A program made the position numbers and the translations under genes. A stretch of DNA of 45,671 nt, taken from positions 1 through 45,671 of the IMG/VR virus record IMGVR_UViG_3300033153_005273, one strand, 5' to 3'. The stretch is from a virus. A model generated the notes under the pieces. That model saw nothing but the letters and a program-made list of their open reading frames with translations, was not told the origin of the DNA and did not search any database. Below are positions 4,009-42,596 of the stretch, one piece after another (the first letter of the stretch is position 1; every line of letters starts with the position of its first letter).

Positions 4009-4464
4009 CTAAACAAGCATGCTTTTTTTAAGCTTCATAATGCTCTCTTTAATTAAATTCATCTGGTCTTCATTTAGGTTGTGTAATACTTGGTGTGCTA
4101 TGTTCTCTGTTGACTTGCCTTGTTCTAATCTAACAAGAGTGTTGATATTGACAAGGCTTGACGTTAGTTGGCCTAATGACGCACCAGCTAATGACTTATG
4201 TTGGAGTGTAGTAGCTAACCTCATACCAACATGCTTAGCTTTCTTAATCAAATCAGCACTATAATTAGTTGCTGTTACCTCTATATTATCAAGGGGTTTA
4301 CCAATCTCAATAAACTCGCTATATTTACGCTTGATTCGTTGTACTGTGCTTCGGGAGTATTTAGTTTTGTCAATAACGCTGGTATCATCAAGCCCCATAT
4401 TGACATACTTAATTATATCTCTATGCCCACTATTTTTAATCACTGGTTTTATGCCTTGCAACAA
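4009..4464 (-). CDS. Helix-turn-helix DNA-binding protein, first gene of the leftward arm
   Basis: The start is TTG at 4464-4462 (or the next TTG, better spaced from AGGGGAAG); no ATG is available nearby. Residues about 16-48 form a resolvase/terminase-type HTH (DIIKYVNMGLDDTSVIDK, then YSRSTVQRIKRKYSEF). The rest is helical with a Leu-rich middle. First position after the control region fits either a late-transcription regulator or a small terminase subunit. Terminase large subunit does not follow, which weakens the second idea. About 125 nt of leader separate it from promoter 4586-4625, and a sigma-54 site lies further upstream. Confidence 0.75.
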   Translation of the reverse strand: MLQGIKPVIKNSGHRDIIKYVNMGLDDTSVIDKTKYSRSTVQRIKRKYSEFIEIGKPLDNIEVTATNYSADLIKKAKHVGMRLATTLQHKSLAGASLGQLTSSLVNINTLVRLEQGKSTENIAHQVLHNLNEDQMNLIKESIMKLKKSMLV

Positions 4465-4585
4465 TCTTCCCCTATTATAATACTATATATACTATTATAT
4501 ATATTAACCCCACTAATATCAAAGTCAATATATTAATAAACTCCATATCAAGGTCAATATTAAAAAACAAAGTTCTTTTTTCTCC

Positions 4586-4625
4586 CTCTATATATAATAT
4601 AGGAGTAAATCGCTCAAATAACAAG
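4586..4625 (-). promoter_or_regulatory. Leftward phage promoter, twin of 23225-23264
   Basis: On the minus strand a TTGTTA -35-like hexamer (4624-4619) is followed after 17 bp by TATATT (4601-4596). Around the -10 lies the block TTTACTCCTATATTATAT followed by ATAGAG. The same 40-bp layout occurs once more, rightward at 23225-23264, with 33 of 40 bases identical and identical spacing. Transcription would start near 4589 and run into the HTH gene. Confidence 0.7.
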
Positions 4626-4710
4626 TGTTTTGGGTTAACGCTCTGTGATCGTTGGATATTATCGCCCCGATTTTCCCTTTTTATAGGCCGATCTCGACCG
4701 CCGCCTCGGC

Positions 4711-4726
4711 TGCAATTTCCGTGCCA
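4711..4726 (-). promoter_or_regulatory. Leftward sigma-54 promoter, perfect consensus
   Basis: Read on the minus strand, TGGCACGGAAATTGCA matches the TGGCACG-N4-TTGCW sigma-54 consensus at every defined base. The -24 GG (4725-4724) and -12 GC (4713-4712) are exactly ten bases apart. Predicted start is near 4700, running toward the HTH gene and the late arm. A host enhancer-binding protein would be required, since no such activator is encoded in the window. Confidence 0.8.
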
Positions 4727-4788
4727 CGCTCCGAAAGTGCCGAGCCGACGAGCTGCAAGATGCCGAAATCATGCCGAAATCGGCTCGC
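4727..4788. promoter_or_regulatory. Candidate shared upstream activator site
   Basis: The 62 bp between the two -24 elements contain the direct repeat TGCCGAAATC with an 11-bp period, a related TCCGAAAGTGCCGAG half-site at 4730-4744, and the inverted repeat CGAGCCGA/TCGGCTCG. One-turn spacing and dyad symmetry suit cooperative binding of an enhancer-binding protein serving both promoters. The identity of the protein cannot be told from the sequence. Confidence 0.5.
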
Positions 4789-4804
4789 TGGCACACTTTT
4801 TGCG
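4789..4804 (+). promoter_or_regulatory. Rightward sigma-54 promoter
   Basis: TGGCACACTTTTTGC has both invariant cores (TGGCAC and TTGC), with GG (4790-4791) and GC (4802-4803) ten bases apart. Predicted start is near 4815, giving about 50 nt of leader to the first small ORF and about 220 nt to the 102-aa gene at 5035. It deviates from consensus only at the base after TGGCAC and the base after TTGC. Confidence 0.75.
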
Positions 4805-4866
4805 GCATAGATGGCAGAACAAAACAAATTTTCAACCTGTCAAAACATGAAAGGAAAACCAAAATA

Positions 4867-4947
4867 ATGTTATACTGGATAAATGCTTGGGTAATAATAC
4901 TTGGATTACTTTGTATAATTATATTATATGCTCCAATACAGTATTAA
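4867..4947 (+). CDS. Micro membrane peptide, 26 aa
   Basis: The ORF MLYWINAWVIILGLLCIII, then LYAPIQY, is almost wholly hydrophobic and would span a membrane once. An AAAGGA site lies rather far (11 bases) upstream. It is the first ORF after the rightward sigma-54 promoter and resembles in style the other tiny membrane proteins downstream. The function is unknown, and chance ORFs of this size do occur in AT-rich DNA. Confidence 0.4.
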   Translation: MLYWINAWVIILGLLCIIILYAPIQY

Positions 4948-5034
4948 AAACACGTATATCAATGGTTATAATATTGACCCGACAATAACGTCAAAGTCAA
5001 TACAAATAGCCACAAATATAAGGAGTGTGATATT

Positions 5035-6364: not shown

Positions 6365-6739
6365 ATGTTAAAGTCAATATCAATAATGATTGTACTTGGA
6401 TGCTTACTATCCAGTTGTGCAACATTTAAAAATGCTGACCCTTGGACAGATGAACAAGTTGTGCTCCAAAGTGTAGCGGCTGTATTAAAAGTTGCTGATT
6501 GGGGAACTACTCTTGACATTGAAAATTGTGCTAATTATTACGAAACGAATCCAATTCTTGGAAAGCACCCAAACAGAGGGAAAATAAATAAATATTTTGC
6601 ATTATCTTTGGGAAGTCAAGTTTTTATTACTCACATATTACCGTCTAAATATCGTAACTGGTGGTTGGGTACTAATATTCTAATATCAGGATATATGGTA
6701 AAAAATAACTTCGGAATTGGATTAAAACTTGATTTTTAG
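6365..6739 (+). CDS. Small lipoprotein, paralogue of the 1235-1582 protein
   Basis: A signal sequence ending CLLSSC is a lipobox, with the lipidated Cys at residue 18. The mature part contains NPILGKHPNRGKINKYFALS and ends GIGLKLDF. These match NPLLGDHPSEGRLNTFAVAG and VGAKVKF in the leftward lipoprotein. The gene lies in the rightward arm, so the phage appears to carry an early and a late version. An envelope role such as entry exclusion or lysis is possible but unproven. The start codon sits inside an AAAGTCAATATC repeat and has only a weak ribosome site. Confidence 0.8.
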   Translation: MLKSISIMIVLGCLLSSCATFKNADPWTDEQVVLQSVAAVLKVADWGTTLDIENCANYYETNPILGKHPNRGKINKYFALSLGSQVFITHILPSKYRNWWLGTNILISGYMVKNNFGIGLKLDF

Positions 6740-19535: not shown

Positions 19536-20773
19536 TAAAAGAACACCTAATATTAAGAGCTTTTCTTTCAGACAGAACTACGTTTGAGAAATATGCACCA
19601 TATATAATTAATCTTGAAAATCTTGATCGTAGTATGAAGATAACACTTGGTTTTATTAAGTTATTTTACGAAACATATCGAAAGATAGATAAGGTAATAG
19701 AACCAGAGTTTAATTTGTTCTTGGAAAAGGAAGATAAGTTTAACTTTCTTAAGAACAACACAACATACATACAAGACATTTACAAGACACCAATACAAAA
19801 CAACAGTCTTACTCTTGACGTTATTGAGAGTTGTGTTGAACAGCACATAATGTCAAAAGTGCTTGATAAAGCTGCACTTGTACTCGATAATAATAAGAGT
19901 GGTATTCTGTCATCAATACAAGATGATATTGACAAGTTTCACAGTATCATACGTAATCCACCAAAAGATATGATGGAATATACTCTTGACCTTGACTCGC
20001 TCATTAAAGACGAGATAACAACCATGGGTATACCATTCTGCAACAAACGCCCAAATGATATGATTCGTGGTATGAGAGTTGGTCAACTTGGGCTAATATA
20101 CGCATATGTTGGGACTGGAAAGACAAGTTATGGAGTATCTAACTTGTGTAGTGTTGCAAGTATTCTTGAAGCTAAGAATTCAGATCGACCTGTCGTTTAT
20201 GGTGGTAATGAAGAAGCGATTAAACGTATTACTCTCCGGACTATACAGTGTATGACAAATTGGAATGACACCGAGATTGCAATAAATAAAGCTCTTGTTA
20301 CACCAATTTTAAAAAGAAAGGGATTCAACAGGATCCACTTCATAGACCATGTAACCACTACAACAATTCTTGAAAAAATACTTGACAAATACAATCCACG
20401 TGTTATGTTTATAGATCAGGGAACAAACGTGAAAATAAGTTCCTCTAAAAAAGAGGGGGTTAACGCTCTTGAAGAACTTTTTAGTCTTTACCGAGATCTT
20501 GCCAAACGTCATAATTGCACTCTAATATGTATGGCTCAAGGTGGTGAAGATTGTTTTGATAAACAATATCCAACACTTAAAGACATTTATGGTTCAAAGA
20601 GTGCCATTCAAGGAACGCTGGATTGGGCGATAAGTGTTGGACGTACATTTGATGACGTTAAATACCTTAACTGGCGTTACTTTAACATCACAAAAACTAA
20701 AGGTAAAAACGATAATCCTAAATATGAATGTAGATTTGACACTGATAGGTGTCAATTTAAACAGGTGGTGTAA
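19532..20773 (+). CDS. DnaB-like replicative helicase
   Basis: 413 residues. A helical N-terminal domain is followed by a RecA-like core: Walker A YVGTGKTSYG (in MRVGQLGLIYAYVGTGKT), Walker B PRVMFIDQG, then the MAQGGED and GSKSAIQGTLDWAISVGRT region of DnaB/gp4-type helicases. It unwinds DNA ahead of the phage polymerase as a hexamer. It starts inside the primase stop (ATGA), so primase and helicase are the split equivalent of T7 gp4. Walker B has Gln after Asp (FIDQG), slightly atypical. Confidence 0.85.
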   Translation: MIKEHLILRAFLSDRTTFEKYAPYIINLENLDRSMKITLGFIKLFYETYRKIDKVIEPEFNLFLEKEDKFNFLKNNTTYIQDIYKTPIQNNSLTLDVIESCVEQHIMSKVLDKAALVLDNNKSGILSSIQDDIDKFHSIIRNPPKDMMEYTLDLDSLIKDEITTMGIPFCNKRPNDMIRGMRVGQLGLIYAYVGTGKTSYGVSNLCSVASILEAKNSDRPVVYGGNEEAIKRITLRTIQCMTNWNDTEIAINKALVTPILKRKGFNRIHFIDHVTTTTILEKILDKYNPRVMFIDQGTNVKISSSKKEGVNALEELFSLYRDLAKRHNCTLICMAQGGEDCFDKQYPTLKDIYGSKSAIQGTLDWAISVGRTFDDVKYLNWRYFNITKTKGKNDNPKYECRFDTDRCQFKQVV

Positions 20774-24716: not shown

Positions 24717-25562
24717 GTGGCAAAAGATAAACTACTCACAACTTACTCTAAACAAATAAAAAATGGGGCTGTGCTTTTAAAAGAAACTGAAGAAATTCTC
24801 TTGGAATTAAAAGATAGTGATGACGTTAAAACAGCCCTAATAAACATGGTTGTAATATCTAATTTACGTTTGGTTACAACAATAGCTGGGCAATATCATA
24901 GGGCGTGGCCTATGTTTGAATTGTTAGACTTAATCCAAGAGGGAAATATAGGCTTGATGATTGGTGTCAGAAAGTTTGACACAACAAAAGGAGTAAAACT
25001 TTCAACATATGTTTCATATTGGATTAAAGACAAAATATATGATTATATACGACAAAATAGTATTGGTGTAAAAATTACAAAGACAGATGCACACCGAAAG
25101 ATATTTGACAATTTAAGTCGGGAACAAAAAAGACTTGAAGCAAAGGGGCTTCCAATAACAAATGAAATCCTTGCTTCTAATCTTAATGTAAAAGAGGCCG
25201 ATATTAACGATCTTAGCCCCATATTATCTGGTAATGGAATGACCGACATCGACCTACACACCAATATATTATCAAGCAATAACGACAATCCCGAAGAAAT
25301 ACTTTTAACCAAAGAGAAAAAACAACTTCTTGAAAATAAGGTAAAAGCATTTAAGAACACCTTGCACTCAAAACAACGGTACATTTTTAATAGCAGACTG
25401 TTATGTGATGGAGCATGTTTAACACAAACCATGGCAGCAACCATACTTCTTACAACACAACAAAACATAAGTGGTATAGAAAAGGTAATCCTACGTAAAG
25501 CTCGTAAATTTTTTAACCAAGAAGAACTTAAGGACTTAATATATAATGATTACAACTACTAA
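24717..25562 (+). CDS. Phage-encoded sigma-70 family factor
   Basis: 281 residues, GTG start with AAGGAG ten bases upstream. Region 2 is at about 44-125 (LLDLIQEGNIGLMIGVRKFD, STYVSYWIKDKIYDYIRQNS), region 3-like at 125-165 (SREQKRLEAKGLPITNEILA), region 4 with HTH at about 207-266. The region 2 layout is RpoH/group 3-like. It probably redirects host RNA polymerase to phage promoters. The 23225/4586 promoter pair is a natural candidate target, linking this gene to late leftward transcription (inference). The end overlaps the nuclease start by 17 bp. Confidence 0.9.
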   Translation: MAKDKLLTTYSKQIKNGAVLLKETEEILLELKDSDDVKTALINMVVISNLRLVTTIAGQYHRAWPMFELLDLIQEGNIGLMIGVRKFDTTKGVKLSTYVSYWIKDKIYDYIRQNSIGVKITKTDAHRKIFDNLSREQKRLEAKGLPITNEILASNLNVKEADINDLSPILSGNGMTDIDLHTNILSSNNDNPEEILLTKEKKQLLENKVKAFKNTLHSKQRYIFNSRLLCDGACLTQTMAATILLTTQQNISGIEKVILRKARKFFNQEELKDLIYNDYNY

Positions 25563-28702: not shown

Positions 28703-28777
28703 AGTGGGATAGTTCAATGGTAGAACACAAGACCTTGGATCTTGTTGTTGTAGGTTCAAGTCCTACTCCCACTGCCA
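28703..28777 (+). tRNA. tRNA-Gln (anticodon TTG), with C33
   Basis: Complete cloverleaf: acceptor AGTGGGA/TCCCACT, D-arm GTTC/GAAC, anticodon stem CAAGA/TCTTG with loop CCTTGGA, five-base variable loop, T-arm GTAGG/CCTAC with TTCAAGT, and encoded CCA. Reading positions 34-36 gives TTG (Gln). Position 33 is C instead of the near-universal T. It may support CAA codons frequent in this AT-rich genome. Confidence 0.85.
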
Positions 28778-28781
28778 AACT

Positions 28782-28858
28782 GCGGGTGTAGCTCTAACTG
28801 GTAGAGCATTGGGTTTCCAACCCGAGTGTTGTCGGTTCGAGTCCGACTACCCGCTCCA
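28782..28858 (+). tRNA. tRNA-Gly (anticodon TCC)
   Basis: Cloverleaf: acceptor GCGGGTG/TACCCGC (one G-U), D-arm GCTC/GAGC, anticodon stem TTGGG/CCCGA with loop TTTCCAA, T-arm GTCGG/CCGAC with TTCGAGT, discriminator T and encoded CCA. Anticodon TCC reads GGA, a common Gly codon here. It lies four bases after the tRNA-Gln gene, so one transcript probably carries both. Confidence 0.92.
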
Positions 28859-29173: not shown

Positions 29174-29417
29174 GTTAATTTGGGAAACAGTTCATCAAGG
29201 GATAGATGACCATAAAAGTTATGACCATTGTATACTTGAACCAGTTAAAAATAAACCCTATACTATGGCACCAGATTTTAGAAAGCACGAATTAGATGAT
29301 GTTGTTCAACATATATTAAATTATCTTGCAGTTGAATTTGAAACAACAGAACGTACCATAACACTCGTAAACAAAGGATCATATGTTAAGTCAAAACGCA
29401 CAAAAGATAGCAAATAA
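29145..29417 (+). CDS. Hypothetical protein before RNR, 90 aa
   Basis: The start is ATG 29145, eight bases after GAGGAG, rather than the in-frame ATG 18 bases upstream. It begins [20 protein letters not shown], similar in layout to [20 protein letters not shown] at 31764, so the two genes flanking RNR may be paralogues over their first 25 residues. The C-terminus differs and overlaps the RNR start by 35 bp. Function is unknown. Confidence 0.6.
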
Positions 29418-31764
29418 ACGATACCTTATGGAAGGTGAAGACTGGAAAAGCGGAACACTACGTGTTGCTGAAGGTAACGCAGCTGGTAAACCACGTTACG
29501 AATATTATAGAGATACCTTTCATAATATGATATATAATATGTATATGATACCTGGGGGACGCATACTACGCAACACACGACGCCCACGAGGATCACTATA
29601 CAACTGCTATCATCTTCCCATTAACGACAGTATTGAAGGTATTGGAGATTGCATTAAGAACGCCCTCATACTTTGGAGTGATGGTGGTGGGGTTGGTATT
29701 AACTTCAGTCAACTACGCCCAAAGGGCGCACCAATTATGGGAAAAGGTGGAACATCCAGTGGGGTAGTTTCTTTTATGATGGCACTTGATGCAGCAGCCA
29801 ATACAATAGAAAGTGGGGGACAGAGGAGGGCTGCTGCGTTAGGGGCTCTTGATGTTTCACATCCAGATATTATTGACTTTATGGATGCCAAGTTAAAGGA
29901 TGGACTACTTTCTTGTTTCAATATCAGCGTCAACATTACCAACGAATTTCTTGAAGCGGTAATCAAGAACGCCACTTGGGATTTAAAATTCAATCAACAA
30001 GTATATCGCACAGTTAAAGCACGAACAATTTGGAACAAGATCATAACAAACATGGTAAAGAATGGAGAACCTGGCCTTCTTAATATGTCAAACTTTGTTA
30101 AAAACAACAGCTATTATTATTCTCCTATTCTTGGAACCAATCCTTGCATATCGGGAGATTCTTTTGTTAAAACTACAATGGGGAGTATTCCCATTAAAAT
30201 GCTGACTAAGTATAAACAGGTAGAAGTATATTCTAAAAATCCTAATGGTGATCTTGTTATAAGACCAGCTAAATTTTTTAGAACTAAAACTAAAGCACGA
30301 ACTATTACTGTTTATACAACAAGAGGTTACCTTAAATGTACAGAAGATCATAAATTTATTACACCAAATGGGGAGATAAAAGCAAAAGATTTAAAACCAA
30401 ATCAAAAACTAATTGGTTTGTTGAGTAAAAAACGTAATGAAACACATTTAAAAGTTGGATGTACTGGTAGTATTTATTTTGACGAAGAAAAGTTTGTAGC
30501 TGGTTATTATTATGGAGATTTATACAGTAATGATGTTCATCATTTAGATGGTAATCCCCATAATAATTCTATTATGAATTTACAATTATTACCACATTAT
30601 ATTCACTCAATGGTTTCAAATAATGGGCATAAACAATGGAATAAAACAAATGAGAAAGGACAATTTGTGTCTAAAAGTGTTAAAAAAAGAAAAAAGATTC
30701 AAGAATATAGTTCTTCTGGTAAAGTATGGAAAGTATTAAAAGTAGATATGACTATTAATCATGAACCTGTATTTGATGGACAAGTTGTAGGAACAAATTG
30801 TTATTTTGCTAATGGTATTCTTGTGCATAACTGCGGAGAAACCTGCCTTTCTGCTTGGGATGTTTGTAATCTTGGTTCTCTTGTGCTTCCTAAATTTCAA
30901 GGTGCCGGCGGTAACACTAATTGGGAAAAACTAAAAGAAATCATACACCTTAGTGTACGTTTTCTTGACAACATTATTGACAACAACAGGTACTCTATTG
31001 ATAAAATACGTATGCAAGCACATAGTAGTAGACGTATAGGGCTTGGTGTTATGGGTGTAGCTGACTACCTTTTTAAAAAGAAAATACGTTATGGTTCCGC
31101 TAAAGCAGTGGAAGAAGTAGAACGTCTAATGAAGTTCATTCGGAACGAGAGTTATCTTGCTTCTGTCGAACTTGCTAAAGAGCGTGGTGCTTTTCCAGCG
31201 TTTAGCGCAGAGGAGTATTGTAAGGCGAGCTTTATACGGAAGTTACCCCCAAAGATCCGTATGGCAATACGTGAATACGGAATTAGAAACGTCACACTCA
31301 ACGCTCTTGCACCAACAGGAACGATCAGCCTCCTTGCCGATGTAACTCCTGGTATAGAACCATTGTTTGCAAAGGCATATAGACGATCTGACAGGGTTGG
31401 GGAACGTGTTTATGTGCATCCATTGTACGAACAAACTGATAATGAATGGCTTGTTGATGTTGAAGATATTACACCAGAAGAACATCTTGATATGCAAGTG
31501 GCCTTTCAAAAGTTTACGGATAGTAGCGTGAGTAAAACAATCAATCTCCCGAAGGATTTTAAGAAGGATAATCTTAATACACTTCTACTTGAGTACGCTT
31601 TTGACATTAAAGGAGTGACTGTATATCGTGATGGTTCTCGGAAAGGTCAAATACTTAACCGCCTTTCCTATGATGAAGTGAAAAAATATTTAAAGAACAA
31701 CAGAGTTTCAACAACTCAAGTTGAAGAAGACGTATCATGTTCAATAAAAGGGGGATGTGAATAA
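29383..31764 (+). CDS. Class II-like ribonucleotide reductase, interrupted by an intein
   Basis: 793 residues, of which 229 are intein, leaving a compact 564-residue enzyme. Extein landmarks: [20 protein letters not shown] (substrate-side Cys), [33 protein letters not shown], active-site [19 protein letters not shown] after splicing, [20 protein letters not shown], and a C-terminal Cys pair (VSCSIKGGC) for re-reduction. NPCGE and the lack of an adjacent small subunit point to the adenosylcobalamin-dependent class. It makes dNTPs for phage replication. The start has AAAGGA six bases upstream. Confidence 0.9.
30145..30831 (+). other. In-frame intein with HNH motif, inserted before the RNR catalytic Cys
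   Basis: Intein residues 255-483 of the precursor. It begins with Cys ([10 protein letters not shown], block A), has a block B-like [15 protein letters not shown] (T-x2-H), and ends FANGILVHN (blocks F/G) before Cys+1. [15 protein letters not shown], followed by LLPHYIHS, is an HNH_3-type homing-endonuclease motif, unusually compact. Splicing joins GTNP to CGETCL, so the +1 Cys is the thiyl-radical Cys of the reductase. The DNA is visibly more AT-rich than the exteins. Confidence 0.88.
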
Positions 31765-34838: not shown

Positions 34839-37800
34839 TTATTTTTTCCTTGATACTTTTCTAAGACGTTTATAAAATTGTTCCCCAGATTTTATTTCAG
34901 CATAATATTGATATGCTAAACCAAGAGCATATTGGTCACGTTTGTTTAGAGATGCTAAAAATAATCTACGATGCCGGCTTCCTTTAGGAAACTTAGCAAG
35001 TGGATCAAGTTTTAACCATTGTTTTCTAATTACTTCACTATAATTTATTCTACCTCCAAGTTCCCTTTGTTTAATAACCATGAACTCTTTAAAGTATTTT
35101 CGCATTGCCTTATCATCACCATATCTATATGCCATACCCATATTATAGAGTGCATTACCAGACTCGGTAACAATAAACCCACTTGTACCAGGCTTTGCTT
35201 CCTTGAGATACTCATGTACTTTTTGTTGAATTGCAATCCAACCGAAACGTTTTCTGTCCCCTTTGTATATTGGACTTAGTTTCATAGCAGCATCAACCCA
35301 ATGACTTTCTTTAGTTGGGCGACCAGTAATAGCGTCATAAACCACATCGGCTTGTAATTGCTCCGCAACATATCTGAGTCTATCTGTAATGGGTTGCCTG
35401 TTCCAAATAGAAGGGAACACCTTCTCACCCATAACCAGTTCAACAGGCATCTTAACATATGGCCCAAGACTCTGGGCAATCTTATTCATAATATCGCCAA
35501 TATTCTTCTTGCCCATATCATAACTTGCAATAACATCCTTAAAAGTTTTCTTACCAATCAGAATATCCATTGCATCCGTTGGTGCTGTATCTACACCAGC
35601 CCATTCAAGAAGATCACCAAGTATACCAATTCTTGGAAAGTATAGTATTTGATCTTTGTGATTACCATATATTATGTGAACACGTCTGTGCATCTCATCG
35701 GGCAATGCATCTTCCTCATCAGGCCAAACAAATTGGTTCCAAGCTTGTGTAGCTACATGTAACATCCCCATTTTAAAAGCAAATTTACCAAGCTTAATTG
35801 GAATAATTACACCTTTTGCCCCAAGTTTACGCCCTATGGTAGCCATGAGGTCATCATTCTTAACTGCATTTCGTGCAAACTGAAGAGTACGCTTCATATT
35901 AATCTCTTGGAAAGACCAGAAAGGAGCAAGATAAGTCCTAAAGTTTTCACCAAAAGTTGTAATACGATCATAAGCCCCAAGAAGATCGTTAGACATAAGG
36001 AAGGCTTTGTCCTTATCGTCGACAATTTGATTAACTTCTTCGGGCATTGAAGCAGCATAGTTCTTTATTTTACCACCACTCTCAAGGAGTGTAACATACC
36101 GTTTGTATGCAGCATAACGAAATAGACTCTCACGCGTATCAGTCCAAGCACGAGCTTTCTTACCATACCAAGTAGCTGGATCTGTTATCTTTTTCTTACC
36201 AGAGTAGTGCTTAACAAACATTGGGTCGGTAAGCATTTTACCCATCTCTTGACTTTGAAGTGTACTTTCCGTACCACCCCTATCAATCCAATCTTGAAGA
36301 TGTTTAGGTGCAACTCCTGTCTTCTTCCACTCTTTAAGATCCTTAGCTGCACCCCAAACATATTTAAAGGTAGCTGGATCCCCAACAAACATAGCCTCAG
36401 CATCACCTGTGAGGTTACGAAAGTTATATTTCAAAGCTCTGAATGGGTGAAGAAGTTGCCACATCTTCCACATACGCATAGTGTGTCGCACAGCGTTTAA
36501 GAATGGCCCACGTTTAGGTCTAGCAAGAGCATCATTAAGAGTCTCGGCTATACTGTCAGGTAAAAAATAACTCTCATACTTGCCACCTAATGCAACTATT
36601 TTGTTTATCTTTGACACTGGAACATTAAGTTCTTTGAGTCCCTTTTCCATTGCTTCTTGTGCCATCTTCCCTGGAATACTGTTAGCAAGATAGAATATAG
36701 AATCTTCACGTGGGTTATAAGGGGAATACCCCTTTTTTTCAGTTTTAGAACCATACTTGTCCATAATGGCTTTAAGTGTGCGCCCTATTTGAGTGTCGTG
36801 CATCATTTGTGACATTACTTCAAACTCAGCTTGAATGTAATTGAGGTTCATCTCATACGCACCACCCTTACGTTTTCGAAGTGAGGATCGTCTGGTTGGT
36901 ACAGCAAGCTTACCACCACTACCTGTTTGACTGTATTGTGCTTGTTGAGCTTTTAGGATGTCAAGTATTTGATGTCTAAAATAGAACGCTCTTGTAATTT
37001 TATTTTCAACACTAAACCCAACATCATTCATAGCAGAAATATATTCTACACGAAGTTGTCTCCACATGTCAAGTCTATTATACCAAGCCCGCAATACTTT
37101 AGCGTTACCTTGCACTGCTGCCCATACTCGTGGGGTTTCAGTAAGTATTTGTTTTTCTGTCCACCCATATGGAAACTCCTTGACAACTACTTTTTCACCA
37201 GCTGTGCGTAACTTTTGATTCATTTTGACTTGTTCATAGAAATCCATCATGTAACTTACTTTTGTTAGAAGACTGATTTCGTTTTTTGAGAGACCATCAA
37301 GATTCTTTGCAAGTAACTTTGCTGTTTTAGCCATTGATATGCTTTGACTTTTTTTGAGACTACGCAATTTATATTGCACATCGCTATATGTTTTTCTTGC
37401 AAGATGTTTAAATTCACGAAAGTTCTTTTTAAAATCGTTACGCATATGATTAAGAAATCGTGTGAAATAATTTGGAGCTATGAACCCTGCCTCGCCTTTA
37501 ACAGAATCCTTATGCATCTTATCATCTCCAAACTTGAACGGAGTGTCATCAAGTTTTTGAGTTTCATAGTTGACAAGCGGATCGTAGTTTGGCATATCGT
37601 CAGAGATAAGTTTATTGTTTTCAAAACTATCCCATAACTCATTCTCTACTTTTTGACTAATAGGATTAGTAATAATAAAATTAGGGTCACCATCAATAGG
37701 TCTTTTTATTTTTAGTTTCCAACCAAGATGTTTTGCAAGTCTTTGCGCAAATCCCTTGTAGATTTTATTTTTCTTTTCATCATATGTGCTACCAGTAAAG

Positions 37801-40800
37801 ACAATTTGTCGTGGAACTTTAGCATTATATTGGTTATTAAGTAGATCAAAAAGCATTCGTTGAATAGCACGTATTGTTTGGATGCCTTTCTTGGCTTTAT
37901 CTTTTATTTTTGTGTCATAAAAACTATATCGCTCATATGTCGGAGTGATACCCTTTTCTTCAAGGAGAAAACTAATTGTTGTTTGATTATCTTCGCTATA
38001 CGGATCTATCTTACGATGATCAAACTCAATGAGAATACGACTATCTGGGCCGAAGTTACTACGTGCTTTAGTTACACCCTCCCCATCCATAGTAATTTCA
38101 AACTCATAATTATGAATCTTAGTCCGGAGATCTTCAGCTTCTTTTATTTTAGCAACCAACGTTTTCTTATCTAGTTTATCAACAGCAAGCGAACTACCAT
38201 ACGCAGAACTATCACGATCTATTACTGTAAACATATATCCAGAGGGAACATAGCCATCATTTGGAGCACAGTATGTTTCGAACTTAACTTTACGTGGACA
38301 ATTTTTGTCGAGGATACGTTGTATTGGAACTTTAGCTGCGGTATTTTCTCTGGTAATGGTGAGGTTCTCATAACTGGTATTTTGCCCTGTTATTGCTTGT
38401 GCAAGTTCAGTAACCAATTCTTTTGCTTCAATATCATCAATAATACCATACACTTCTCGGGCTTGTTTTATTGATGGTATTATTTGATCTACTACTTTCT
38501 TTGGCATTGCCTTACCAGTTATAATATATTTCTCGCGAACATATTTCATTTGTTTGGCAAGTACACGACGAGACTCTCCCGCAGTTTTGGCTCCGGTTTG
38601 TACCATAGTCTTCTCACGTTTTGTAGAATCCTCTTCTGTAAACGCTTTGACTTTTGTTATGGCACTTGGAGTTCCAAGTTTTTGAAGGTCGGTTTTTAAT
38701 ATTGGGGGAGCATCTTCACCAGACCAATCATAAAATTCCTTTGGCCCAACGAGATCAATGAGACTATTCTTTGCAAACTGTACAGAACTATGTGGTGCAT
38801 CAAGATGTACTAATCGTTTGTATTCCGCTTTGAAGAATTTAGTCTGCTTTGCTTCAGTAGCTCCAGCATCTTTCGTAAGTTTTTCCTCCGCTGCTCTTTG
38901 TTTTGCCAAGTCGTTACGCAGCGCCTTTTCTTGAAGAAGTGATATAGCTTGGAGTCGTGTTTCATAATATCTTATCTGTCCCTGAAAATTAGTTAATCCT
39001 TTATCAACCGCTTCTTTAAGTTTGGCTCTAACTTTTGATGCTTCATTTTCAAGAGTAGTGGGTTGCATAGTGCTGAGACCAGCTGTTGGATTAAGCTTAT
39101 CCCATCTACTTTCAACACCATGTTTTTTTACGTAGGCTTCCCTTACCTTTTGATTGTCGGCACGTTCATCGGCCCAATGTTGAGTTAATGTTTTATTGCC
39201 ACGTCCTTTTCTACGAGCATCAAGAAGCATCTTATCTTTCTCAGAGAGTCTTTTCTTTGCTTCTTTAACTACCGTTGGTTCAGTCTCAAAATTAGAATAA
39301 CGTATATCTTCACCAGTCAAAGCTCCACTATCCGGATCAATTACCTTTCGGTGTGGGTCAACCATACGACCAGCTTCTTCCCGAGTGTAATAGTCAAGAA
39401 TCTTACCACTCTTATCTACTGCTGCAAACCCATCAAGCGATCCTATAGGAGCACCTTTAATATCCCAGTGCCCAAGAGGGCTTACCCACGTCTTGCCACT
39501 TTCACTATCAATGAGAGCCGGCTGAAGAGATGTGGCTCCCTTTGGAAACCCATGGAACTTCTTTATGTCAAGTTCATAACTATGGTACTCACCCTTTTTA
39601 AATTCCTCACCAGCAATTTCTTGTGCTTGTTGGGACACACGGGTTAACCATTTATTCTCAACGGCAAGAAGATCATCAAGTATTGTTTGACTTTTAACAC
39701 CCTTCAATGGAATATTTTTAAAGAGCGCCCGAATAATCCGTTGCCAAATACTTTCTGGGGCTTTTGTTCTTGGGTTAATTGACTTTATGCTGGCGAGTAC
39801 ACGAGATATTTCAACACGACTAAACGCATTTGCCATAATCTCTTCCCAATATTCAGAACGTTCCTCCTTGTTACCGTACTTTGGGTCTCCAGTTTTCTTG
39901 GCAGCATTTACTATTGTTGACCAAGCCTTACGAAAGTTACGTTGCTTAACAGTATAGGATTCCCATTGTGCTTTATACGGAGAACCTATTACGTTCTTCA
40001 TGTCATATTCAGTAGCCCAGCCATGCATACGATCTAAATATTTTTTTGGTATACTAAACCAAATATCTTCTACATCTTTAAGAAAGCCTTTCATTTCAGT
40101 TGTTTTTGCAGAACCAAGCTCAGCACGATAGATAGCATGGATAAGTTCATGAACAAGAGTGCCTTCCGCATACTCTTGATTAAGATCCCTTGCTAACGCA
40201 TCGGGGTTTAATCCAACATGAATCTCACCAACCTGCCCAGTATATTGATTCGATACCCACGATGTTGTTAGTCCACGAGTAACGGAATCTGGGGTTGTTT
40301 GGTCATTAAGATCACCAACATAAAATTCAACTTTCTTTCCAGAAGAGATTAGTTTATCAATGAGAAACTGATACTCAAACTCCCCATTAAATATCTTCTC
40401 TTCAAGTCTTTCAATTATTTGCAAACCAACTTCACGTTCAATAACACGCGAATTATTTGAACCAAGGTATGCATCTTTAACTTCTTCGGCCCTACCACTC
40501 TGTTCTACATAACTATCTCTCCGTGTAAAAACTTTACCAAGATGCGGAGAATCCTTTATCGGACGTTGCCCAGTTGGTTCCACAACATTAGCAGACTTTA
40601 AAGATACTGCGCTAGGTGCAATAGGTTGTTCATCTAATTCTGCTTGACTTACTCCTTGATACTGTTCTAATTGACTTTGAAGCGCGGCTTTATATTCTTT
40701 AGAAGTTGTTTTAGATTCAAGAGCTTTGTCAACAAGTTTTTTAGTGGGTGGAACAAGTATTCCCTTATCAAAAATATAACCCTTAAGTATTTGCGATTGT

Positions 40801-42596
40801 TCGGTTTTCGAAAATCCACTTTTAATTTCCTTTTCTGTAAATCCAATTTCTTGTGCAATGAGATTTACACGAGTTTCTTTGGCAGCTTTAAGACGTGCAC
40901 TGTCGTTTTTCTTTAGGGTTATTTCGTCAAGTTTTGTGTATGTTTCTATTATGTTATCAAGTGTAGCTGGGTCCGTTATGTTCTTTATGTCAGTTACTTT
41001 AATGGAACGTGTTTGTGCATCAACAAGTTTCTCTTTATCGGATACTTCCGTAGGTTTCTTACCGGCTTTTATATTGTTGACTTCTTTCTCGTGTTCTTTT
41101 ATTATTTGACTTTGATCTTCTGGGGTTTTCTTTTCCTCAACAATCCCCATAGCTTCTTTTGTCTTTTCAATTTCAGCACCAGTCATCTCATCAACGTCAA
41201 CAGGATCAAGAACTTCGGTTGCATCATCTACCATCTTCTTAACTGCAACTTTCTTTTCCTCTGAAAGATCAGATTCATCAATAGTATTTTTAATATTTTC
41301 TTTTACATTACCAGGCTTTCGTTCTGGAGAAACTATTTGATTACCTATACTTAAAACACCACCACTACCAGGTAATACAATAGCAACAGCACCCTCATAC
41401 ATACCTTGTTTTGTTATTTCCCAGGCGTTATTTAACCACTGGTTTAATAATTCAAGAGTCTTACGATCAGGATTTGTAGCAAATAATTCTCCCAAATATT
41501 CTGGATGTGCTTGTGCAGTTTCAGTAATAAATTCTGCTAATAGTGTTTCACCAAGACCTTTTAATTTTTTATATATTGGAGCTTTTAATTTGAAAAATTT
41601 TGTAAATCTTGTTATACCAAAAGCTTCCATTGGTGCTGAAACCATAGCAACAGCAAGGGCATGATTTAAAGCACGTCGAGGAGCAACACCTTTATCAATA
41701 TAATCATTATAATTAGCACCAGTTATCATTGTCCCTATTGAAACTGTGGCCCCAAAACCTCCTGTTGCAGCAGCTATTAATAATTGACCCATAACTTGGG
41801 GAGCCATTGCAATAACATCCTCCCAAAAACTTTCTGTTTGCAAGTATTCTGGATTAAGTTTTATTTGTTCCTGGACATATTTAAAACTTTCATCATAAGC
41901 TTTAAGAAAAGTGGGATCTTTTTTACGAGCAAAAGAATTTAATATATTTTCTCGCTCTTGAGAAGTAAGTTTTTCTCCCTTTAATTGTTCTGCCTTTTTA
42001 TATTCCTTATCTAAATCAATAAGGTGGGATGGATTCATCATAATACGTCCAACAGCAGATTTTTCACCAATTAAAAGCATCCCAGTAGAAACATCTTTAA
42101 AAGTTTTTTTAATATATGTTTTAAGTATCTTACCTGGACGATCTGATTGTTCCTCAATAAGATCGCCCTCTAATGTTAAATAATCTAATACGGGATCAGT
42201 AGTAAAAACTTTATCAATTTTACTCATTTTTACTGCTTGATTTTGAAGTGCTTGATTTACTACGATGTTTTCTTTGAGAGATCTATTTGCAGCATATGCA
42301 AGACCTGGCTCGCCGACATCCCCACGATAAGTGTTTCCATGTTTGTCAGCGAATTTTTGTTCTGGAGTATTTCGTGCAGCAATAAAAGCCTTACCAGCAG
42401 TTACTTGTTTATCTTCCGTGGTAAGGTCTTTTGTTGTTATTGAATCGTCTGTAGCACCAGCAGCACTGATGTTTCGTGCATAATCGGTATAACTTTCCCC
42501 ATCCCTGCCATATTTTTTATAGAGGGCTTCCGTTAAATCTTTATCAGTATATTGTGCATATTCAGGAAAATCGACCACAAATTGTTTAAGACTCAT
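34839..42596 (-). CDS. Giant virion protein (polyvalent / ejection type), 2585 aa
   Basis: TAGGAG precedes the ATG. The N-terminus FPEYAQYTDKDLTEALYKKY is typical of long phage polyvalent or internal proteins. Hydrophobic helices lie at about 262-330 (AMAPQVMGQLLIAAATGGFG). VHELIHAIY (His816, Glu817, His820) is a zincin motif. About 1595-1620 (RQIVFTGSTYD, KIYKGFAQRLAKHLGW) resembles the acetyltransferase-like piece of such proteins. About 2050-2240 (ALKYNFRNLTGDAEAM, YLAPFWSFQEINMKRT) resembles the LPD38-type helical region. Likely packaged in the capsid and ejected with DNA, carrying peptidase and other host-modifying activities (family knowledge plus inference). Confidence 0.8.
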   Translation of the reverse strand: MSLKQFVVDFPEYAQYTDKDLTEALYKKYGRDGESYTDYARNISAAGATDDSITTKDLTTEDKQVTAGKAFIAARNTPEQKFADKHGNTYRGDVGEPGLAYAANRSLKENIVVNQALQNQAVKMSKIDKVFTTDPVLDYLTLEGDLIEEQSDRPGKILKTYIKKTFKDVSTGMLLIGEKSAVGRIMMNPSHLIDLDKEYKKAEQLKGEKLTSQERENILNSFARKKDPTFLKAYDESFKYVQEQIKLNPEYLQTESFWEDVIAMAPQVMGQLLIAAATGGFGATVSIGTMITGANYNDYIDKGVAPRRALNHALAVAMVSAPMEAFGITRFTKFFKLKAPIYKKLKGLGETLLAEFITETAQAHPEYLGELFATNPDRKTLELLNQWLNNAWEITKQGMYEGAVAIVLPGSGGVLSIGNQIVSPERKPGNVKENIKNTIDESDLSEEKKVAVKKMVDDATEVLDPVDVDEMTGAEIEKTKEAMGIVEEKKTPEDQSQIIKEHEKEVNNIKAGKKPTEVSDKEKLVDAQTRSIKVTDIKNITDPATLDNIIETYTKLDEITLKKNDSARLKAAKETRVNLIAQEIGFTEKEIKSGFSKTEQSQILKGYIFDKGILVPPTKKLVDKALESKTTSKEYKAALQSQLEQYQGVSQAELDEQPIAPSAVSLKSANVVEPTGQRPIKDSPHLGKVFTRRDSYVEQSGRAEEVKDAYLGSNNSRVIEREVGLQIIERLEEKIFNGEFEYQFLIDKLISSGKKVEFYVGDLNDQTTPDSVTRGLTTSWVSNQYTGQVGEIHVGLNPDALARDLNQEYAEGTLVHELIHAIYRAELGSAKTTEMKGFLKDVEDIWFSIPKKYLDRMHGWATEYDMKNVIGSPYKAQWESYTVKQRNFRKAWSTIVNAAKKTGDPKYGNKEERSEYWEEIMANAFSRVEISRVLASIKSINPRTKAPESIWQRIIRALFKNIPLKGVKSQTILDDLLAVENKWLTRVSQQAQEIAGEEFKKGEYHSYELDIKKFHGFPKGATSLQPALIDSESGKTWVSPLGHWDIKGAPIGSLDGFAAVDKSGKILDYYTREEAGRMVDPHRKVIDPDSGALTGEDIRYSNFETEPTVVKEAKKRLSEKDKMLLDARRKGRGNKTLTQHWADERADNQKVREAYVKKHGVESRWDKLNPTAGLSTMQPTTLENEASKVRAKLKEAVDKGLTNFQGQIRYYETRLQAISLLQEKALRNDLAKQRAAEEKLTKDAGATEAKQTKFFKAEYKRLVHLDAPHSSVQFAKNSLIDLVGPKEFYDWSGEDAPPILKTDLQKLGTPSAITKVKAFTEEDSTKREKTMVQTGAKTAGESRRVLAKQMKYVREKYIITGKAMPKKVVDQIIPSIKQAREVYGIIDDIEAKELVTELAQAITGQNTSYENLTITRENTAAKVPIQRILDKNCPRKVKFETYCAPNDGYVPSGYMFTVIDRDSSAYGSSLAVDKLDKKTLVAKIKEAEDLRTKIHNYEFEITMDGEGVTKARSNFGPDSRILIEFDHRKIDPYSEDNQTTISFLLEEKGITPTYERYSFYDTKIKDKAKKGIQTIRAIQRMLFDLLNNQYNAKVPRQIVFTGSTYDEKKNKIYKGFAQRLAKHLGWKLKIKRPIDGDPNFIITNPISQKVENELWDSFENNKLISDDMPNYDPLVNYETQKLDDTPFKFGDDKMHKDSVKGEAGFIAPNYFTRFLNHMRNDFKKNFREFKHLARKTYSDVQYKLRSLKKSQSISMAKTAKLLAKNLDGLSKNEISLLTKVSYMMDFYEQVKMNQKLRTAGEKVVVKEFPYGWTEKQILTETPRVWAAVQGNAKVLRAWYNRLDMWRQLRVEYISAMNDVGFSVENKITRAFYFRHQILDILKAQQAQYSQTGSGGKLAVPTRRSSLRKRKGGAYEMNLNYIQAEFEVMSQMMHDTQIGRTLKAIMDKYGSKTEKKGYSPYNPREDSIFYLANSIPGKMAQEAMEKGLKELNVPVSKINKIVALGGKYESYFLPDSIAETLNDALARPKRGPFLNAVRHTMRMWKMWQLLHPFRALKYNFRNLTGDAEAMFVGDPATFKYVWGAAKDLKEWKKTGVAPKHLQDWIDRGGTESTLQSQEMGKMLTDPMFVKHYSGKKKITDPATWYGKKARAWTDTRESLFRYAAYKRYVTLLESGGKIKNYAASMPEEVNQIVDDKDKAFLMSNDLLGAYDRITTFGENFRTYLAPFWSFQEINMKRTLQFARNAVKNDDLMATIGRKLGAKGVIIPIKLGKFAFKMGMLHVATQAWNQFVWPDEEDALPDEMHRRVHIIYGNHKDQILYFPRIGILGDLLEWAGVDTAPTDAMDILIGKKTFKDVIASYDMGKKNIGDIMNKIAQSLGPYVKMPVELVMGEKVFPSIWNRQPITDRLRYVAEQLQADVVYDAITGRPTKESHWVDAAMKLSPIYKGDRKRFGWIAIQQKVHEYLKEAKPGTSGFIVTESGNALYNMGMAYRYGDDKAMRKYFKEFMVIKQRELGGRINYSEVIRKQWLKLDPLAKFPKGSRHRRLFLASLNKRDQYALGLAYQYYAEIKSGEQFYKRLRKVSRKK

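Follow-up and report, generated by a model that had tools for sequence, protein, structure and literature searches.

Paired sigma-54-type elements at the divergent junction of a phage genome from IMG/VR and recurrent sites of this type upstream of phage terminase genes

Gene organization around the divergent junction

The window, i.e., the whole analyzed stretch of 45,671 bp of viral DNA (IMG/VR record IMGVR_UViG_3300033153_005273), is organized into three gene blocks: one on the minus strand (from position 4464 to 199), one on the plus strand (5035–33516), and a second minus-strand block (45599–33572). The intergenic stretch 4465–5034 parts the minus-strand genes, lying to the left, from the plus-strand genes, lying to the right, and constitutes the sole divergent junction of the window. 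Both sigma-54-type elements described below are intergenic and located within this junction, and each of them faces a gene of its own direction, i.e., the terminase-small-subunit-like (TerS-like) gene or the first rightward open reading frame (ORF) longer than 60 codons (Table 1). This gene order agrees with an earlier note on the same DNA, which had placed the two elements at the divergence of two genome arms.

Table 1. Features identified at the junction, together with the gene of the phage-encoded sigma factor.
Feature	Position	Strand	Remarks
TerS-like gene, first of the leftward arm	4009..4464	−	relatives in loci L105 and L106
Sigma-70-like promoter, TTGATA-17-TATAAT	4494..4522	−	11/12 match; between the leftward sigma-54-type site and the TerS-like gene
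G+C-rich island holding both sigma-54-type sites	4685..4830		57% G+C vs. 35% in the genome
Leftward sigma-54-type −24/−12 element, TGGCACGGAAATTGCA	4711..4726	−	predicted start at about 4700
Tandem direct repeat, ATGCCGAAATC x2	4760..4781	+	11 bp period; between the two sites
Rightward sigma-54-type −24/−12 element, TGGCACACTTTTTGC	4789..4803	+	predicted start at about 4815
26-codon ORF downstream of the rightward site	4868..4948	+	putative AAGGAAAA-like ribosome site; from the sequence
First rightward ORF of more than 60 codons	5035..5343	+	no assigned function
Phage sigma-70-family factor	24717..25562	+	phrog_351, 5e-34; Sigma70_r2, 4e-14

The rightward arm encodes a DNA ligase, an HNH family protein, an ATPase found in N4-like phages, a primase, a DnaB-like helicase, a DNA polymerase, an exonuclease, a sigma-70-family factor (for which RpoH and SigA are the closest likenesses in PDB), a ribonucleotide reductase, and an RNA ligase. 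The large subunit of the reductase (29383–31764) appears to contain an intein; an insert between NPC-ISGDSF and GILVHN-C breaks the reductase match, and HNH endonuclease matches fall at residues ~369–436 of this protein. It is also worth mentioning that two mutually similar, small lipoprotein-like proteins are encoded, one per arm (1235–1600 and 6365–6739).

The TerS-like gene lies 247 bp from the leftward site. The C-terminal LEQGKSTEN of its product is common to small ORFs of L105 and L106 (two unrelated IMG/VR contigs), in which these ORFs are localized directly upstream of the TerL and portal genes. With moderate confidence, the N-terminus of the TerS-like protein is predicted to form a helix-turn-helix (helices 12–47), and the fold prediction for this protein is weak (pLDDT 53). 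The earlier note had named an early and a late arm. Replication genes are indeed found in the rightward arm and the TerS-like gene in the leftward one, although the label "late" depends mainly on this single gene, because no recognizable relatives were found for the remaining leftward proteins. The size and location of a 2585-aa protein (34839–42596) make it a candidate for an internal virion protein. Its assignment as a virion RNA polymerase or any named virion protein was rejected, as there was no PHROG, Pfam, or PDB match, and its C-terminal third had no match in phage records.

TerL, portal, and capsid genes were not found in the window, and the record is linear, without terminal repeats; therefore, the window is probably a partial genome. 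Comparison of the G+C-rich island with phage records gave no match, and with plasmids only a trivial one of 32 bases. No IMG/VR relatives were found for the first rightward protein, the DNA polymerase, or the 2585-aa protein; the DNA polymerase, the ATPase, and the reductase have distant relatives only.

Sigma-54-type and sigma-70-type elements of the junction

Exact matches to TGGCAC-N5-TTGC occur twice in the whole window (both strands searched), and a single 92-bp stretch contains both of them, whereas the only site with one mismatch (position 20266) lies within the replication region. The two elements are divergent and outward-facing, with 62 bp between them, and both contain the −24/−12 cores in the GG-N10-GC arrangement, so the back-to-back pair described in the earlier note was located in the sequence; the transcription starts predicted there also agree with counting from the −12 base. 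Within the window, the leftward element is the sole match without mismatches to TGGCACG-N4-TTGC and has the top weighted score, and the rightward element is second-best in both the motif scan and the weighted scoring. The extended consensus of sigma-54 promoters has Y before TGG, G/A after CAC, and W after TTGC. At these positions, the leftward site carries G, G, and A, and the rightward one C, A, and G; thus, the extended consensus is imperfect in both, with G preceding TGG in the former and G following TTGC in the latter. The leftward element, previously called consensus-perfect, has an exact core but deviates at the extended base before TGG.

In 300 dinucleotide shuffles of the window, the mean number of matches was 0.067 and the maximum was 1, while shuffling the island (4685–4830) 20,000 times never produced two matches. 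Because neither the window nor the island shuffles ever gave two matches, the two-site match is real and beyond chance, as the earlier note had expected.

The island was also considered as a hairpin or another structured element, and this was rejected, since its DNA fold was no better than that of shuffled sequences. The Rfam search revealed two tRNAs and no other structured RNA; genes for tRNA-Gln (TTG) and tRNA-Gly (TCC) lie at 28703–28858. Near the two sites, no recognizable enhancer for an activator ATPase was seen, and only the tandem repeat ATGCCGAAATC, a possible activator or repressor site, is present there.

Sigma-70-like matches are abundant in this part of the genome (17 in 1.6 kb vs. 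6.3 ± 2.8 in shuffles). Moreover, TTGACTTTGATAT and AAAGTCAATAT elements, possibly phage early promoters or operators, are repeated in several intergenic stretches between 3997 and 7130. The sigma-70-family factor encoded by the phage is a possible alternative driver of late transcription.

Divergent pairs and crowded arrays in other viruses and in bacteria

Since the collections contain no close relative of the phage, recurrence was sought in other viruses, and IMG/VR was scanned for a divergent pair with the pattern GCAA-N5-GTGCCA-N45..75-TGGCAC-N5-TTGC. The pair was present in 103 stretches, compared with 2 for the pattern with one extra base per spacer. Fifty of these records, taken whole, contained 247 TGGCAC-N5-TTGC sites (at least two per record are present by selection, and the other ~147 are unselected) vs. 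5 with the longer spacer and 3 of the reversed pattern. At the bases left unfixed by the search, a pyrimidine precedes TGG in 72% of viral and 73% of bacterial sites, a purine follows CAC in 97% and 84%, and A/T follows TTGC in 84% and 73%, respectively; preferences for T and C directly before TTGC are additional in the viral sites. On these frequencies, the unselected bases of the viral sites match the sigma-54 pattern as they do in bacterial pairs.

Using the phrog_2 family and three TerL proteins from the PHROG scans for detection, the pair was found up to 3 kb upstream of TerL in 38 of 44 records. Of the 19 records measuring 20 kb or more, 14 showed this arrangement, with 1.2 expected, and random placement in the same records gave 7 at most in 10,000 trials. 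When profiles were built from 34 TerL proteins, a TerL gene within 3 kb and pointing away from the pair was recognized in 77 of the 103 viral loci, while TerL was absent from all 119 bacterial (GTDB) loci with the same divergent pair; because some of these loci also supplied the profiles, the finding of TerL as such is in part built into the comparison, but its position is not. Grouping the 34 sampled TerL proteins by identity gives 14 clusters at 40% and 22 clusters at 60%, and the sharing of one motif by 14 TerL clusters therefore points to a conserved host factor. Divergent genes flank the pair in 49 loci, and convergent genes do so in 10. In L004, a primase-helicase and a DNA polymerase are transcribed away on the other side, which is a mirror of the window. 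Among seven annotated isolate regions, to which the TerL proteins of L004 and L101 or the array of L047 led, six contain no exact site and one has a lone site; these isolate relatives of the array-phage TerL genes are distant, and the sites are mostly absent there. No TerS motif linking the window to the array phages was found.

Most viral loci differ from the window in the number of sites. Two-site clusters were present in 9 of the 103 loci (five of these nine, L028, L035, L050, L071, and L078, with TerL within 3 kb), and the others contain 3–12 sites in mixed orientation. There is no strand bias (317 vs. 310 sites), and the outermost sites face outward in only 41 of the 103 clusters. Back-to-back sites are preferentially separated by 10 or 20 bp and facing sites by 3–7 bp, most often 6–7 bp; given the polymerase footprint, such gaps leave no room for two polymerases. 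By contrast, exactly two outward-facing sites were found in 113 of the 119 GTDB pairs, and the three-site array, present in 70 viral stretches, was found in none of the GTDB genomes. The crowded, mixed-orientation clusters are thus unlike simple promoter pairs and, because they comprise 3–12 sites and such arrays are absent from GTDB, most of these phages hold something that bacteria lack. The window, with its two outward-facing sites, resembles the bacterial form. Crowded arrays upstream of terminase genes were noted in IMG/VR loci L002–L104 and L116–L144. An attempt to name a host through an array-bearing prophage failed, as GTDB contains no such array.

Possible functions of the sites and related systems

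Both sites have the appearance of genuine sigma-54 sites, and their position is one at which such sites recur among phages. Our preferred explanation, to which we give roughly even chances, is that the pair would act as a divergent promoter pair dependent on the host RpoN, at the switch between replication and packaging. Host RNA polymerase with RpoN would occupy both sites as closed complexes until a host signal activates an enhancer-binding protein of the host, which would then open one or both of them; this opening would gate transcription, including that of the terminase operon. Because the sites lie at the junction of the arms here and beside packaging genes elsewhere, infection may depend on a host signal. 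Two exact outward-facing sites, the sole divergent junction, and recurrence upstream of terminase speak for such a promoter pair, together with the dependence of the viral matches on the exact spacer, their sigma-54-like unselected bases, the diversity of the TerL clusters, and the TerS-like gene headed by the pair of the window. Against it are the lack of an activator or enhancer among the features found, the sigma-70-like promoters located nearer to the TerS-like gene, and the phage sigma factor, as well as the crowded clusters of most other phages and the distant isolate relatives without sites. A motif scan of the window in six frames indicated no sigma-54 activator, and in the 50 comparison records, among which the window is not included, no activator (PF00158) was found above the cut-off. 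Accordingly, from the earlier proposal of control by RpoN and an enhancer-binding protein, the part concerning the sites gains support (they are beyond chance, located at the junction, and recurrent near terminase), while for the other part no activator was seen.

The same sites may be considered in terms of binding without transcription. Host sigma-54 or its holoenzyme could be held mainly in silent complexes, as a sponge for the RpoN polymerase or as a roadblock or boundary beside the start of packaging. The packing of 3–12 sites in both orientations without strand bias, gaps too narrow for two polymerases according to general knowledge of their footprint, triple-site arrays that are present in 70 viral stretches but missing from the GTDB genomes, and the lack of an activator gene in the 50 records are all consistent with this explanation. 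We regard it as rather unlikely, and the window itself has only two outward-facing sites, an arrangement of 113 of the 119 bacterial pairs that fits promoters better than it fits a sponge. It is likewise unlikely, in our estimation slightly more so, that the motif serves as a pac/cos-like site, recognized by a packaging protein (TerS or another phage factor), and only resembles a sigma-54 site. The tight linkage of the sites to the region upstream of terminase, the adjoining TerS-like gene of the window, the direct and inverted copies in the arrays, which recall packaging sites, and the absence of arrays from bacterial genomes would fit such a role. Nevertheless, packaging sites are expected to vary by lineage, and here the same motif with the same spacing stands beside TerL of at least 14 clusters, its unselected positions match the bacterial sigma-54 pattern, and the array phages do not share the TerS-like motif seen in the window.

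There is a still smaller probability that the pair is idle or of minor importance in this phage, and that sigma-70-type promoters or the phage sigma factor drive both arms. The excess of sigma-70-like matches, one of which (11/12) is placed directly upstream of the TerS-like gene, the sigma-70-family factor encoded by the phage, and the TTGACTTTGATAT-like elements repeated in intergenic stretches are in line with this, but it would leave unexplained both the two exact back-to-back sites at the junction and the recurrence beside terminase genes. Finally, the G+C-rich composition of the island favors TGGCAC, but the result of the island shuffles makes a chance similarity highly improbable.

The RpoN promoter pair that we favor can be compared with several known systems. 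Bacterial divergent RpoN pairs have the same −24/−12 core, the same spacing, and two outward-facing sites, but the pair of the window is found in a phage, at a replication/packaging junction, without an adjacent activator gene or a known enhancer. In the CtrA "lytic deferment" system, unrelated phages have the sites for a host master regulator gathered within a single large intergenic region, and a link to the host state was proposed (PMC9437464). Similarly, the exact sites of the window lie within one intergenic region, and those of the other records mostly cluster upstream of TerL. The CtrA system differs in concerning Alphaproteobacteria and in being supported by binding and reporter data (PMC9437464), whereas the sites of the window are sequence matches of the sigma-54 type. 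Phages annotated as encoding sigma-54-type regulators or factors are phi1422 (PMC3391216) and Pectobacterium phage Q19 (PMC7693777); they share with the window a link between phage and sigma-54, although through an encoded protein, whereas the window offers DNA sites, and a protein of this kind was not found in it. phiEco32-like phages, e.g., 7-11 (PMC8948821), encode a sigma-70-family factor, as the window does, and are not known to have sigma-54-type sites at the junction. A literature search, with subscription papers and preprints largely outside its range, returned no publication describing sites of the sigma-54 type next to the terminase genes of phages. Among published ideas, the CtrA system comes closest.

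The usual view is that sigma-70 polymerase, phage polymerases, or phage sigma factors switch the late genes of phages. We propose, with confidence and doubt evenly balanced, that the sigma-54-type clusters immediately preceding the terminase operon represent a convergent element, present in many unrelated uncultured phage lineages, through which late expression or packaging would be tied to the host RpoN; the arrays are absent from bacterial genomes, and the window would be a minimal, two-site member. Sigma-54 promoters are silent until a signal-driven activator acts; therefore, if the junction is under RpoN, the phage could hold or release its packaging program according to the nutrition, motility, or envelope state of the host. 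With sigma-54-type sites accompanying terminase in many lineages, one isolated finding becomes a general, testable question, i.e., whether the RpoN system is read by phages or titrated by them, or whether the motif is used for packaging.
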